A stretch of DNA of 20,133 nt from a virus. Each line of letters begins with the position of its first letter. Positions within the stretch are counted from its first letter, which is position 1. Where the stretch lies: IMG/VR virus record IMGVR_UViG_3300025759_000932, positions 1-20,133 of that record. One strand, written 5' to 3'. Below are positions 7,778 through 11,826 of this stretch, in pieces. The translations under genes and the position numbers were made by a program. The notes beneath the pieces were generated by a model. The model was not told the origin of the DNA. It ran no database searches and saw nothing but the letters and a program-made list of their open reading frames with translations.

Positions 7778-7936
7778 ATGGAAGAGACACTACAAAGATT
7801 ATCCGTAGGAATCTTCGGATGGATAGCCACGGATACATTACAGAGCGTAGACCTTGTGCTTGGCGTAGTGTCTAAATCAGTTCTGATCACTTTAACAGTT
7901 TTATCAATCTATAAACTATGGAGGGAACTTAAATGA
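7778..7936 (+). CDS. Small one-TM protein, possible holin component
   Basis: A 52-aa protein starting at the ATG at 7778, one base after the previous stop, with a GAGGAA ribosome binding site at 7765-7770. The longer frame from 7721 overlaps the preceding gene and was not used. It has a mildly charged N-terminus and one hydrophobic segment (VDLVLGVVSKSVLITLTVLSIY, ~24-45), interrupted by Ser-Lys-Ser. The C-terminus is basic (KLWRELK). Its stop overlaps the start of the next membrane gene (ATGA). Size, single TM and a holin-like neighbour suggest a holin, antiholin or small lysis accessory. This is inference; no family is recognised. Confidence 0.6.
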   Translation: MEETLQRLSVGIFGWIATDTLQSVDLVLGVVSKSVLITLTVLSIYKLWRELK

Positions 7937-8340
7937 CACCAGAATTATTAGCAATGTTAGGTGGTGGAGCTTCTGGCTTTATCTTTAAACTAGTAGGTAC
8001 ATTGGTACAAAACCAAGCAGCACTTACTAAGGGACTAATTGAAAAACAAAAAGCATCAGACGAAAGTGCCGATGCCGCAGCAAAAAGGGTAGATGCCTTT
8101 GGTGCTTGGACACGTAGAATTATTGTACTGACAGTATTATTTGGAGTAATCATTGCACCATTTATTCTAGCAAACAGTGAATCCGGCGTTACCATCGCTA
8201 CTGACTACAGTAATTGGTTCGGAATCTTCAAAGGTACAAATTACCAAACTCTTCACGGATATATCATTCTCCCCGAAATCAAGACAGCCGTTATTAGTAT
8301 AATCAGTTTCTATTTCGGAAGTGCAGCAGTAAGTAAATAG
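7933..8340 (+). CDS. Putative holin (GTA-holin-3TM-like)
   Basis: A 135-aa membrane protein with a strong GGAGGG ribosome binding site at 7920-7925. Hydrophobic stretches are IIVLTVLFGVIIAPFILA (63-80) and IKTAVISIISFYFGSAAV (116-133). A weaker third one is at the N-terminus (LLAMLGGGASGFIFKLVGTLV, 5-25). A charged Ala/Lys-rich linker lies between (DESADAAAKRVDAF) and WTRR precedes the second segment. This three-segment layout resembles the holin family found in gene transfer agents (PF11351-type), whose products make the pores that let endolysin reach the wall. The lysozyme gene lies ~6 kb upstream rather than beside it. Family membership is from remembered layout; the holin role is likely but unproven. 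Confidence 0.6.
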   Translation: MTPELLAMLGGGASGFIFKLVGTLVQNQAALTKGLIEKQKASDESADAAAKRVDAFGAWTRRIIVLTVLFGVIIAPFILANSESGVTIATDYSNWFGIFKGTNYQTLHGYIILPEIKTAVISIISFYFGSAAVSK

Positions 8341-8361
8341 TATGATCTGTAAACTTTGTAA

Positions 8362-9201
8362 ATGGATAAGCAAACTGCCAAAAATAAACTCAAAGAATTG
8401 CGGGATTCTCTGTCCGAAGTCTTGGATGGAAAAGCCTATCAAGATTCTGAAGAGATTAAAGAGCAGTCTGCTGAAGCTATCCAACAAGCTAGGTCAGCTA
8501 GTAAGCAACTTAAAAAGTCTCTTCTTGAAAAAGTAAAAGACCTTCCGGTTGTACAGAAGGTTAGCGAACTAGGCACCGCTGGTAGTGTCGCTGTAAGTAC
8601 AGCCGCAGTTGCTCAGACAACGGTTGCGGTAGATCAGACAGAAGTCTTCGTGGCAAGTGTCGCAAACGATGTTGTCGAAGAGCGTATTGAAGTTCCATTC
8701 TTCATTGATACTTTTGTTGATTTCCACGAGTTGAATGATTGGGGTCAAGTGGTTATCGCTGAGAAGATCGCTGCGGTTTCCGAACAGTCACAGATTTCTC
8801 AACCAGCTGCTGACGCTCCGGACACCACACAAGAAACCTCTCCTTCTTCACAAAGTTCTTCCGCCGAAAATTCCTCTCAAAGCGATCAGCCACAACAAAC
8901 TGATAAATCATCAGAGTCCCAAAGCCAAGAGCAAGAATCAAAAGAAGATAGTTCATCAGAAGAAAGTGAAGAGGTTAAAGAAAGCGATTCAGAACAAGAT
9001 AAAGAAGATAAGCAAGAACAAACCCAAGAACAGCAAACTGAAGAACAGAAACAATCTCAAGAAAGTAATTCATCCTCTGAGACTAGCACAGAGTCCAATG
9101 ATGTCAAGTCCGATTTACCCACAATAGAAACACCTTTTGAACCAATGAATGATGATATGAAGCCTCATTCAAGTACAATCCCAGTATCGCCCACAAACTA
9201 A
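8362..9201 (+). CDS. Ser/Glu/Gln-rich low-complexity protein, unknown function
   Basis: A 279-aa protein in three parts. Residues 1-60 form a charged helix (LKELRDSLSEVL and EEIKEQSAEAIQQARSASKQLKK). Residues ~61-135 are Ala/Val-rich and moderately hydrophobic (GTAGSVAVSTAAVAQTTVAV, 71-90), then an aromatic segment VPFFIDTFVDFHELNDWG (111-128). Residues ~137-250 are a long disordered tract of Ser, Glu, Gln, Asp and Lys. The final ~30 residues are Pro/Thr-rich. There is no clear ribosome binding site. It lies between the holin candidate and another unknown gene. It may be a membrane-associated or virion protein with a flexible tail. I do not recognise the family. Confidence 0.7.
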   Translation: MDKQTAKNKLKELRDSLSEVLDGKAYQDSEEIKEQSAEAIQQARSASKQLKKSLLEKVKDLPVVQKVSELGTAGSVAVSTAAVAQTTVAVDQTEVFVASVANDVVEERIEVPFFIDTFVDFHELNDWGQVVIAEKIAAVSEQSQISQPAADAPDTTQETSPSSQSSSAENSSQSDQPQQTDKSSESQSQEQESKEDSSSEESEEVKESDSEQDKEDKQEQTQEQQTEEQKQSQESNSSSETSTESNDVKSDLPTIETPFEPMNDDMKPHSSTIPVSPTN

Positions 9202-9611
9202 TGAACGCAAAACAATTCGCACAACAAAGAGTAAATCAAAAACTTTTAGGTTATAAAATAAGAAATAAGTTATTTGCCGGAGAAGATAAATATTTTAGGG
9301 AAAATCCAAAAGTCGGAGGTATGGCTAGTTTTGAAACTGGCGATATAATATTAAATCCGTACTCGGATCCTAGTGTTAACAAAACAGCAGTTGCTATGAA
9401 TGAAGCCTTGAGACTAAAAATGAATAATGAAGGATTTGTTCCAAACGTAGATATATCGGATGAGCAAAGAGATTTTTTTAAAGGAACTGCTTATGAAAGT
9501 AATGATGACGCTATAAAACAAACTATATTTGCTAGAATATATTCTGGTGACCCAAGTGCAAAGGCAACGAAAAAACAAATGGAAGCGTACAAAAATTATA
9601 TTAAAAAATAA
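9201..9611 (+). CDS. Hypothetical protein
   Basis: A 136-aa soluble-looking protein that starts by one-base TAATG overlap with the gene before it, with no ribosome binding site. The N-terminus is basic and helical (AKQFAQQRVNQKLLGYKIRNK). The centre has GGMASFETGDIILNP (~39-53), followed by a helix (AVAMNEALRLKM) and a C-terminal helix ending in Lys-Lys. The layout of a Gly-rich turn, a small beta segment and then an Asn-Glu-containing helix is vaguely reminiscent of small peptidase-like or toxin-like domains, but no catalytic motif (such as HExxH) is present. Base composition is clearly lower in GC than the preceding gene. No function is claimed. Confidence 0.65.
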   Translation: MNAKQFAQQRVNQKLLGYKIRNKLFAGEDKYFRENPKVGGMASFETGDIILNPYSDPSVNKTAVAMNEALRLKMNNEGFVPNVDISDEQRDFFKGTAYESNDDAIKQTIFARIYSGDPSAKATKKQMEAYKNYIKK

Positions 9612-9613
9612 AA

Positions 9614-9784
9614 ATGGAATTTTTTAAATATATATTCGATAACTACAAGGACAATATGCTCGGTATAGCATTTGCCTACATTGGTATAATATCAATAGTG
9701 GTGATGTTTTTGCCTAAGGATAACTTCATCTCTAAGCTCTTCAAAGAGTTTGCCTCAATCTTTACATCTTTATTCAAAAAGTGA
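9614..9784 (+). CDS. 56-aa single-membrane-span protein
   Basis: A short gene with ATG at 9614 (two bases after the previous stop) and TGA at 9782-9784. The product has a short aromatic N-terminus (MEFFKYIFDNYKDN), one strong membrane segment (MLGIAFAYIGIISIVVMFLP, 15-34) and a basic amphipathic C-terminal helix (SKLFKEFASIFTSLFKK). This is a plausible holin, pinholin or small accessory membrane protein. Its stop overlaps the GTG start of the PEP-CTERM-like gene by four bases (GTGA), so the two are probably translated together. No family is recognised; the frame is supported by clean coupling on both sides and by the membrane pattern. Confidence 0.65.
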   Translation: MEFFKYIFDNYKDNMLGIAFAYIGIISIVVMFLPKDNFISKLFKEFASIFTSLFKK

Positions 9785-10374
9785 AAATACTTATCCCATT
9801 ATTATTCATAAGTACAGCATTGATAGCTAATGTGTTTCTTAATAGCGTAAGCTATGATTTAACCGTAGATATAGGTGAATCAAATTATGTAGAAGGTTTT
9901 GTATTTGATGATAATTCAGAGGAACAAAATATAAAAACTTATTACGAATATATAGAGTTCCAACCAACTGCTACTGGATTCTATGATTTTAATAATTACT
10001 CAAGTGCATTGAGTAGCGGTACTAACGATACATCTGTATTATTATATGAGGGATTTGCTTCAGATAATAATTTAATCTATGATATGCCTTGGGCATTCAA
10101 TGATGACGAGTATACATTCTTTGGAGGAAAACAAGGAGATTCTTTTGAACATAGCTTTGAAGAAACATCTCTACCCTTTGATGGTTCAATATCTTTAACT
10201 AGTGGTCAAGATTACACAGCGGTGTTCACTTCTTTTGATCCTAACACAACTGGAAGAATACAATTTACAATACAAGGTCCCGGAGAACTTCAAGCGAATA
10301 TACCAGAGTCTATGCACATTGGTTTACTTATGGGACTTTGTTTACTAACATTAACACTAATTAAGAGGAAATAA
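9781..10374 (+). CDS. Secreted surface protein with PEP-CTERM-like sorting tail
   Basis: A 197-aa protein starting at GTG within the GTGA overlap. Residues 1-24 are a signal peptide (Lys2, then a hydrophobic core ILIPLLFISTALIANVFL). Residues 25-168 are beta-rich, acidic and Asn/Ser/Thr-rich. The motifs DTSVLLYEG (83-91), FNDDE (106-110), SLTSGQDYTAVFTSF (138-152) and TGRIQFTIQGPG (157-168) resemble the passenger fold of many PEP-CTERM proteins, which often end in a ...GPG strand. The C-terminus is a Pro-Glu-Ser motif at 175-177, a hydrophobic helix (IGLLMGLCLLTLTLI, 180-194) and KRK at the very end. That is the PEP-CTERM exosortase signal, with Ser in place of the second Pro. Low GC suggests host-derived or recently acquired DNA. 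It could simply be a C-terminally anchored membrane protein. Confidence 0.72.
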   Translation: MKILIPLLFISTALIANVFLNSVSYDLTVDIGESNYVEGFVFDDNSEEQNIKTYYEYIEFQPTATGFYDFNNYSSALSSGTNDTSVLLYEGFASDNNLIYDMPWAFNDDEYTFFGGKQGDSFEHSFEETSLPFDGSISLTSGQDYTAVFTSFDPNTTGRIQFTIQGPGELQANIPESMHIGLLMGLCLLTLTLIKRK

Positions 10375-10376
10375 CT

Positions 10377-10463
10377 ATGGACAAATACGGAAAAGGAAGT
10401 TGCGGCGAAAGAGTCGCTGGTAAGAAAAAACTAATGGGTAAAGGTAAAGGCTACAAAAAATAA
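10377..10463 (+). CDS. 28-aa Lys/Gly-rich micro-protein
   Basis: A very short frame with a well-placed AGAGGA ribosome binding site at 10364-10369 and ATG at 10377. The product is MDKYGKGSCGERVAGKKKLM followed by a Gly/Lys repeat (GKGKGYKK). It is very basic with a single Cys. The stop overlaps the next start by one base (TAATG). Support comes from the ribosome binding site, the coupling and the resemblance in composition to the six genes that follow. Function is unknown; DNA or RNA binding is possible from charge alone. Confidence 0.55.
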   Translation: MDKYGKGSCGERVAGKKKLMGKGKGYKK

Positions 10464-10597
10464 TGCCCGGAGGACTTATATCAGTTGTAGTAATCGGAGA
10501 CAAGAAGAAGGGTTCTTGCTGTCCAGCTTGTGCCGCCGAAAGTGAAGCAAAGGCTATACGCCGTCCTAGCGTAGGATCAACACGTAAGAAAGTATAA
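10463..10597 (+). CDS. 44-aa basic protein with Cys cluster
   Basis: A short gene that overlaps both neighbours by one base (TAATG on each side). It begins MPGGLISVVVIGDKKKG and has a Cys cluster GSCCPACAAES (17-27), then a basic tail (KAIRRPSVGSTRKKV). Three Cys within five residues suggests metal binding or disulfide formation, but no fourth ligand is obvious. No family is recognised. The coding call rests on the perfect coupling and on sharing the basic composition of the cluster. Confidence 0.55.
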   Translation: MPGGLISVVVIGDKKKGSCCPACAAESEAKAIRRPSVGSTRKKV

Positions 10598-10734
10598 TGG
10601 CTAAGATTTGTAAAAAAGGAATCGCTTGGGCACGTAGGACTTTTGATAAGTATCCTAGTGCTTATGCTAATATGGCGGCTAGTAAGTACTGTAAAGATCC
10701 TAACTACGCCAAGAAATCTAAGAAGAAGAAATAA
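10597..10734 (+). CDS. 45-aa basic protein with YPSAYAN motif
   Basis: A 45-residue protein starting by TAATG overlap. It has Cys5, then IAWARRTFDKYPSAYANMAA (9-28), Cys32 and a terminal Lys run. The YPSAYAN motif with flanking Cys is one I recall from small basic proteins and domains in marine phages and large viruses, where it recurs beside other small Cys/Lys motifs. The biochemical role is not known to me. Location inside the late operon suggests a virion or DNA-binding protein. Confidence 0.65.
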   Translation: MAKICKKGIAWARRTFDKYPSAYANMAASKYCKDPNYAKKSKKKK

Positions 10735-10740
10735 TTTATT

Positions 10741-10935
10741 ATGTTACAAGAAAGTAAAGTTCAACAAATACAAAACGCATTAACAACTAATGCAAAGTTA
10801 AAGAAAAGGGTAGACAAAATGCTACAAGAGGGTAGACCCCTAACAAGTGTAGATAAGTTATATCAAAGATCTTTAATTGAAGATAAAAAAAACTTAACCC
10901 AAATGCTTAACGAAGCTAAAAGAAAATCTAAATAA
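10741..10935 (+). CDS. 64-aa helical basic protein
   Basis: A 64-aa protein with no ribosome binding site (the leader is A/T-rich and ends TTTATT). It is nearly all helix (SKVQQIQNALTTNAKLKKRV, then DKLYQRSLIEDKKNLTQML), with a net positive charge and a Lys-Arg-Lys end. No motif is recognised. It follows the YPSAYAN gene by six bases and overlaps the next gene by one base (TAATG). Confidence 0.6.
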   Translation: MLQESKVQQIQNALTTNAKLKKRVDKMLQEGRPLTSVDKLYQRSLIEDKKNLTQMLNEAKRKSK

Positions 10936-11180
10936 TGGGTGAGCTCAAAAAGTGGAGAGAACAAAACTGGGTACGAATCGGAATTGACGGTTCAATCAAA
11001 GGACCTTGTGGAACCTCAAAAGATAAGAAAAGACCAGACCGTTGTCTTCCAATGGCAAAAGCCAAGAGTCTCACTAAGTCTGAAAGAGCGGCTACAGCTC
11101 GCAAGAAAAAAGCTGGCGGAGCAAAAGGAAAACAATTTGTAAGTAACACACCAAAAGCAAAAGTAAGGAGTAAGAAGTAA
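10935..11180 (+). CDS. 81-aa Lys-rich protein with W..ENWVRI/GPCG motif
   Basis: An 81-aa, very basic protein starting by TAATG overlap. The N-terminal third has WREQNWVRIGIDGSIKGPCG (7-26), then DRCLPMAKAKSL (35-46), then an Ala/Lys helix and a Lys-rich tail (GGAKGKQF to VRSKK). I recall this arrangement (Trp-containing start, GPCG, then a second Cys in RCLP) in small basic proteins of marine phages. Two conserved Cys suggest a small metal-bound or disulfide-bonded fold. Function is unknown. A 67-aa frame over the same bases from 10939 is an out-of-frame shadow. Confidence 0.65.
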   Translation: MGELKKWREQNWVRIGIDGSIKGPCGTSKDKKRPDRCLPMAKAKSLTKSERAATARKKKAGGAKGKQFVSNTPKAKVRSKK

Positions 11181-11581
11181 TGATTAAGATAGAGAGAAAC
11201 CCAGACGGTAGCATTAAAGCTGCTTACAGTGTAGATGCTTCTGGTATGAGACTTCGTGCTATGGACCCAACTCCTATTCCAGTATTAGGCTCTATGCCCC
11301 AAGCTACTAAACCTTCATTAGATGCTATTTTAGGAAATGTAAAAGTAGATCCAATTACTGGAAGATCTGGTCGAAGAACATTTGATGAGTTTAAAAATTT
11401 TATAAAAATAAATAAAGAATCTTTCATAAGAGATAAAGGAAAATTTGAAGGATTCAGAGGAGGAGGAATAAAAAGTTTCAATGCTATACTTGATGATCTA
11501 CAAGAAGGTAAATTTGATAAACTTACTGAAGAAGAAGCAAAGTACGTAGACGATTTAAAAAACAATAAAATTAATTTATAA
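11180..11581 (+). CDS. Hypothetical protein
   Basis: A 133-aa protein with an AAGGAG site at 11164-11169 and a TAATG overlap with the previous stop. It opens with a short beta stretch (MIKIERNPDGSIKAAYSV), followed by a Pro-rich linker (MDPTPIPVLGSMPQATKPSL, 28-47), then a helical basic/acidic half (RRTFDEFKNFIKIN and LTEEEAKYVDDL). Base composition falls to very low GC after ~11380. No family is recognised. The Pro-rich linker between two small domains might mark a short tail-completion or linker protein, but this is a guess. Confidence 0.62.
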   Translation: MIKIERNPDGSIKAAYSVDASGMRLRAMDPTPIPVLGSMPQATKPSLDAILGNVKVDPITGRSGRRTFDEFKNFIKINKESFIRDKGKFEGFRGGGIKSFNAILDDLQEGKFDKLTEEEAKYVDDLKNNKINL

Positions 11582-11826
11582 TGGCTATCGACAAAAAGAA
11601 GATGAAGTGCAACGTACCTCGCCGAGATGTTCAAGGCGGCAAGAAGTTCGTAGTAAAAGCTTGTGAAGGTGGTAAAGAAAAGATTATTCGTTTCGGAGAT
11701 GCGAATATGAAAATCAAAAAGAATATACCAGCTAGCAAGAAAAGCTATTGTGCTCGTAGTGCTGGCATTAAAGGCAAAGGAAAGATGTCCGCTAACTATT
11801 GGTCAAGAAAGGCTTGGGACTGCTAG
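11581..11826 (+). CDS. 81-aa basic protein, FGDxNM..YWSxxxW family
   Basis: An 81-aa protein started by TAATG overlap with no ribosome binding site. It contains KFVVKACEGGKEKIIRFGDA (22-41), NMKIKKN, SYCARSAGI and ANYWSRKAW, ending in Asp-Cys. The pattern FGDxNMxIKxxxP...AR....A.YWSxxxW is one I associate with a widespread small domain in phages and other viruses from aquatic samples, often alone or fused to structural or Cys-containing parts. Its role is unknown to me. It ends directly before the nozzle gene without a gap. Four Cys are present (C10, C28, C57, C81). Confidence 0.7.
   Translation: MAIDKKKMKCNVPRRDVQGGKKFVVKACEGGKEKIIRFGDANMKIKKNIPASKKSYCARSAGIKGKGKMSANYWSRKAWDC

Follow-up and report, generated by a model that had tools for sequence, protein, structure and literature searches.

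A phage protein with a PEP-CTERM-like tail, encoded in a conserved gene cassette

Organization of the locus

We analysed a window of 20,133 bases that constitutes an entire record of a marine virus. An SU10-type major capsid protein encoded in the window (PF17236, E 4e-52) identifies its source as a tailed phage, whose closest named relative is phage C75C1 (capsid protein, 65%); the record of C75C1 carries no host entry, and a literature search found no paper on it. The region of interest comprises the following features.

7933..8340, plus strand: holin-like multi-span protein (phrog_38283) beside the cassette
8362..9201, plus strand: 279-aa acidic, Ser/Gln-rich protein with the hydrophobic motif LGTAG..VA.STA; third cassette member, homologous to 529-558-aa proteins of a second phage lineage (lineage 2)
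9614..9784, plus strand: 56-aa single-span membrane protein; conserved partner directly upstream of the family gene, with homologues in lineage 2
9781..10374, plus strand: PEP-CTERM-like protein of 197 aa with a GTG start
9781..9852, plus strand: signal peptide of this protein, residues 1-24
9853..10299, plus strand: acidic, probably beta-rich passenger; the swapped segment
10300..10371, plus strand: PEP-CTERM-like tail, IPES-MHIGLLMGLCLLTLTLI-KRK

The GTG start of the 197-aa gene overlaps the TGA of the 56-aa gene. Compared with a 94-95% relative (L001), the gene carries 18 synonymous and 12 non-synonymous differences (dN/dS 0.165). Because these changes are mostly synonymous per site, the frame is a real gene, and it is under purifying selection. 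Searches of Pfam, NCBIfam and PHROG gave no assignment, and no relative was found among deposited phages.

The name 'holin' for the product of 7933..8340 is our own reading. A different multi-span protein takes its place in a related contig, L010, and a 72.5% homologue of that protein lies beside the lineage-2 cassette in L245. L010 also encodes (7999-10053) a subtilisin-like protease domain, with an NGTSFSCP serine motif recognized by eye, fused ahead of a gene that is 202 aa long in the window. Separating the acidic gene from the 56-aa gene in the window is a 136-aa ORF (9201-9611); both L001 and the otherwise similar L019 lack it, which marks it as a small insertion. The PEP gene is followed (10378-11826) by very small, mostly Lys-rich ORFs, the order of which is reshuffled between related phages.

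Domain plan of the 197-aa protein

The original prediction described a signal peptide, an acidic passenger ending in TIQGPG, a PES motif, a hydrophobic helix and a terminal KRK, and translation and hydropathy bear out each of these elements. Residues 1-19 have a high hydropathy (Kyte-Doolittle about 2), with the hydrophobic run (residues 3-20) following Lys2 in both the window protein and L001, as expected for the signal peptide of a PEP-CTERM protein. Judging by the -3/-1 rule, our guess is that cleavage occurs after SVS. The passenger (residues 25-174) contains 26 Asp/Glu residues against 3 Lys/Arg residues and no Cys, and this scarcity of basic residues and Cys fits PEP-CTERM proteins (PMC1569441). 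Its beta-rich character, also predicted, corresponds to weak strand prediction in a structure model built from two sequences, which is not confident (pLDDT 38) and which places a helix at residues 4-21. Searches of Pfam, NCBIfam and PHROG recognized no domain in the passenger. TIQGPG stands before IPES (residues 174-177), the C-terminal helix runs to residue 194, and KRK occupies residues 195-197, in agreement with the PEP-CTERM arrangement, in which the helix is followed by basic residues clustered in about the last ten positions. The sole Cys, residue 187, is located inside this helix.

The tail against PEP-CTERM models

PEP-CTERM/exosortase (EpsH, XrtA) is a protein-sorting system of Gram-negative bacteria (Haft 2006, PMC1569441; TIGR02595, PF07589). 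When the window record was searched with TIGR02595, a single match was obtained, at 10300-10371, covering all 24 model positions (1-24) with 14.6 bits (E 0.0023 for the record); the model found no second candidate elsewhere in the 20,133 bases. The curated cut-offs are 16 bits for TIGR02595 and 20.7 bits for PF07589. The proposed check against these models therefore came out in part: the tail aligns to TIGR02595 from end to end, its score lies below the cut-off, and PF07589 gives no match. As to the caution originally attached to the Pro-to-Ser change, the window and L001 have PES, a local variant of a tail that sister phages carry as VPEP (VPEPAFVGLFMGLCLLTLTLIKRK). The window protein appears constructed to act as a PEP-CTERM protein. 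Since it scores below the curated cut-off and lacks the third motif residue, we do not file it as a formal PEP-CTERM member; it is probably a divergent form, judging from a homologue, L230, that has the third residue and exceeds the cut-off.

Relatives at the same locus

To collect relatives independently of the motif, we used the upstream 56-aa gene (9614-9784) as an anchor, which gave 29 loci. The gene that follows is intact and adjacent in 27 of these and stands two genes further on in L111, and all of them end in [VI]PE[PS], a helix and basic residues. As this ending recurs after the 56-aa neighbour in all 27 intact, adjacent cases, the tag is not a product of chance. Apart from L001 (L090 in this set), the genes encode 88-126-aa acidic proteins that start with MSHE and have no signal peptide. 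A profile search widened the family to 52 distinct sequences; because one of its two patterns contained VPEP, it is the anchor set that serves as the unbiased one. In 50 of the 52 distinct cases the 56-aa gene adjoins the family gene; a contig end cuts one of the two exceptions.

PE is invariant in these 52 relatives, with P as the third residue in 50, A in one and Q in one; at about 4 bits apiece, the P-E-P columns of the family alignment exceed every column of the helix. The related contigs contain 105 distinct ORFs with a C-terminal transmembrane segment, of which 47 show PE[PASQ] ahead of the helix. This family accounts for 44 of the 47 (40 starting MSHE, one MTLS, one MSYL, the window and L001), and the remaining 3 are other ORFs. 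The TIGR02595 cut-off is exceeded by 10 of the 36 records of the set formed by the window and its relatives. The best tail, VPEPSTYALLAGFAVLIFTMIKRRNK (G028/L164), scores 22.7 bits with TIGR02595 and 23.5 bits with PF07589, above the cut-off of the latter, and four tail types (G014, G016, G021 and G025) give no match to TIGR02595. The MSHE relatives have no hydrophobic start, and some carry 20-35 extra, basic residues after the helix. Almost all bacterial PEP-CTERM proteins have a signal peptide (PMC1569441), and by that standard the missing signal peptide, the extensions beyond the helix and the model-negative tails are unusual. A structure model of the MSHE family (pLDDT 71) begins the C-terminal helix at the motif and has no match in the PDB. 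At the other end of the family proteins, M1-S2 is invariant and H3-E4 nearly so (52 sequences, 42% mean column identity), with no recognized domain.

A separate reading of these genes, in which a programmed frameshift from the 56-aa gene would supply the membrane segment to the MSHE proteins, was rejected on two grounds, namely that conservation of the A-run ahead of the stop fails in L108, L109 and L110 and that the gene stands alone in L111.

Exchange of modules at the motif

Comparison of the window with L019 revealed 87-97% DNA identity as far as the start codon and 95% in the tail region, whereas the intervening segment is unrelated. The window gene is therefore the usual gene with its front part exchanged, the break falling at the PEP codons. 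The secreted passenger replaces the usual front part only in the window and in one close relative, L001. Exchange in both directions is seen within the MSHE family, where 37 pairs combine an N-part at least 85% identical with a tail at most 50% identical, and 19 pairs combine an N-part at most 60% identical with a tail at least 90% identical. In lineage 2, L234 and L235 are 28-50% identical in the passenger, and identity climbs to 88-96% at the VPEP codons and on into the tail. A sorting tag would be expected to retain its motif and helix type as the cargo changes; a simple anchor would have no need to preserve PE. Retention of the tag while the front part is swapped suggests that these phages may use the host sorting machine to alter the surface of the infected cell.

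A second, T4-like phage lineage

L230 emerged from a scan with a VPEPST tail pattern. Its 218-aa product is homologous to the window protein over the full length, with 29% identity, a pairwise E of 2e-22 and a shuffle z of 18. This homologue has a signal peptide, VPEPSTYALLAGFSVFMYVAIRKRN and a canonical VPEPSTYALLAGF tail, and its TIGR02595 score, 19.0 bits in the record search and 16.6 bits in the protein scan, is above 16 in both. The terminase and capsid genes of L230 are of a different kind from those of the window.

The cassette itself recurs in this lineage. In L233, from the same sample as L230, the genes encode, successively, an acidic protein of 552 aa, a transmembrane protein of 59 aa, a signal-peptide protein ending in IPEPATYGLVMSGALLTLLLRKRK (22.2 bits) and a homologue of the L230 protein that runs off the contig. 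The 59-aa protein is homologous to the window 56-aa protein (E 1e-11), and the homology of the small transmembrane proteins of the two lineages is clear. Further contigs repeat the small transmembrane gene with the PEP-tagged gene; we treat them as one lineage because they share the cassette and its neighbours, and one of them can be placed among T4-like marine phages on account of a peptidase (phrog_459) common to cyanophages and other T4-like marine phages. Other lineage-2 members reach 17.1-25.7 bits, and the TIGR02595 cut-off is passed in 4 of the 8 lineage-2 records. Upstream of the small transmembrane gene lie the 529-558-aa homologues of the window 279-aa protein. As low complexity may have inflated this similarity, we re-tested it with a profile and shuffles; the score across lineages is modest and exceeds all 200 shuffles.

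In four of these contigs, a 382-395-aa protein with a signal peptide and a terminal Phe is encoded directly after the PEP-tagged gene.

L240:4651-5838: signal-peptide protein ending in Phe, next to the PEP-tagged gene
L243:809-1972: as above
L244:1548-2696: as above
L245:3316-4479: as above

Its best match is the beta-barrel porin family BBP2_2 (E 0.01-0.03 in 2 of the 3 proteins scanned), which is below the cut-off, and it is possibly an outer-membrane beta-barrel.

Across both lineages, the homologues that the original prediction had proposed to seek in related phages all keep PE; no homologue with a transmembrane segment and no PE was found, and members of both lineages pass the TIGR02595 cut-off. 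The central proposal, a PEP-CTERM-like signal on a phage protein, is thus well supported by a tail that is kept in relatives and by homologues above the curated cut-off in two phage lineages.

Comparison with known systems

The window protein shares with PEP-CTERM proteins the signal peptide, a passenger low in basic residues and Cys, PE(P), a single helix and a basic extreme C terminus, and the family as a whole shares with them the combination of diverse passengers with a constant tag. It differs in being phage-encoded in a conserved cassette, in the PES motif of the window, in the lack of a signal peptide from most members of the SU10-capsid group and in the lack of a phage exosortase. The three-part plan of motif, helix and basic cluster is also common to the LPXTG/sortase, GlyGly-CTERM/rhombosortase (PMC3237569) and MYXO-CTERM/myxosortase (PMC11980579) systems; the motif here, in contrast, is PE(P) rather than LPXTG, GlyGly or an invariant Cys. 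The phage cassette is probably a new form of known PEP-CTERM sorting, of which the window protein would be a divergent variant.

Phages are known to alter the surface of infected cells through envelope proteins of their own, including superinfection-exclusion and lysogenic-conversion proteins, which the window protein would resemble in this respect; we know of no such protein that carries an exosortase tag. U-spanins such as T1 gp11 have a domain exported to the periplasm and a membrane helix at the C terminus, a plan that the window protein, encoded near a holin-like gene, would share. The window protein differs in its PE motif and exchangeable passenger, and as it has no lipobox Cys after the signal peptide (its only Cys lying in the helix), identification as a classical u-spanin was rejected.

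Proposed function and alternatives

We consider it probable that the window protein is a secreted passenger with a PEP-CTERM-type tail that is sorted by the host exosortase, as part of a portable phage cassette that remodels the envelope of the infected cell. Sec would export the passenger, and the C-terminal helix, with KRK in the cytoplasm, would stop the protein in the inner membrane, so that PE faces the periplasm. Exosortase would then cut at PE and pass the passenger to the outer surface. This enzyme would have to come from the host because the phages carry none; no exosortase is encoded in the 14 viral records examined or in phage C75C1. In the MSHE members, which have no signal peptide, the acidic N-part could cross the membrane as an N-tail. 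The cassette consists of an acidic membrane protein, a small transmembrane protein and the PEP-tagged protein, joined in one lineage by the outer-membrane beta-barrel-like protein, and in it the tail persists as passengers are swapped. Its most probable use would be envelope remodelling, by blocking superinfection, changing aggregation or helping release; a role in release is kept open by the position beside the holin-like gene. Several observations weigh against this reading: the window tail reads PES and scores under the curated cut-off, the usual MSHE proteins start without a signal peptide, some relatives extend past the helix or have tails that give no model match, the phages encode no exosortase, and the passenger yielded neither a recognized domain nor a confident structure.

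Alternatively, the tail could simply anchor the protein in the membrane as part of a complex for lysis or release, in which PE merely caps the helix at the membrane face without any exosortase and the protein works with the small transmembrane, acidic membrane and holin-like proteins, perhaps as a spanin substitute. The window cassette does come directly after the holin-like gene, a multi-span membrane gene near the cassette is common to both lineages, and the absent signal peptides and basic extensions of MSHE members, together with the tails that match no PEP-CTERM model, also agree with an anchor. We nevertheless regard this as rather unlikely, given that PE is invariant while the helix sequences vary and are exchanged exactly there, and that the distant homologue L230 ends in the canonical tail and not in just any anchor. 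The nearly invariant, non-hydrophobic MSHE start and the clean swap between the window and L019 could also mean that the MSHE proteins are tail-anchored actors in the cytosol, N terminus in, and that the window variant, a secreted protein unrelated to them, owes to recombination a tail irrelevant to sorting. Such an orientation is improbable: because the tail ends are basic and the N-parts acidic, the positive-inside rule puts the N-part outside, and the signal peptides that the window variant and lineage 2 carry on the same tail type fix the same topology.

Least credible, in our estimate, is the recent capture of a host PEP-CTERM gene whose passenger brings the phage no benefit. In favour of capture, the passenger was found in only two contigs of the SU10-capsid group; against it, the gene is under purifying selection, homologues in the second lineage lie beside the same cassette genes, and one pattern-based scan of genome contigs gave no bacterial homologue. 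The sole genome-contig match, 33 residues of a Bacteroidetes metalloprotease-like protein, was judged spurious, and a plasmid search for the source of the passenger gave no match.

Extending sorting by host exosortase to the family as a whole, we put at about even chances the broader proposal that marine phages of at least two unrelated lineages share a portable three- or four-gene cassette that uses host exosortase for modular display, with passengers exchanged at the cleavage motif to give a variable infected-cell surface. What advantage PEP-CTERM/exosortase sorting confers is poorly understood, and its use by phages was absent from the part of the literature covered by our search, in which no title or abstract on PEP-CTERM or exosortase with phage, virus or prophage reported a phage-encoded PEP-CTERM protein. 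In a phage family whose cargo is exchanged and whose only constant parts are the tag and helix, the tag would seem to be enough for delivery, and the proteins would supply small natural exosortase substrates for biochemistry. Host-exosortase sorting would also imply exosortase-bearing marine bacteria as hosts of these phages and would be a new way for phages to remodel the surface of their hosts.

PEP-CTERM proteins were also observed in further viral contigs. L216/L219 and L223 encode proteins that score 25.9 and 26.3 bits, respectively; the L216 gene is near a contig end, so host flanks are possible there. In another viral group (L211, L212, L214, L215 and L228; contigs of 30-73 kb), a signal-peptide protein of 114-117 aa has a middle part rich in Gly and Asp and carries the tail VPEPSTYALFAGMIGLGYAVYRRK, which scores 23.3 bits with TIGR02595.
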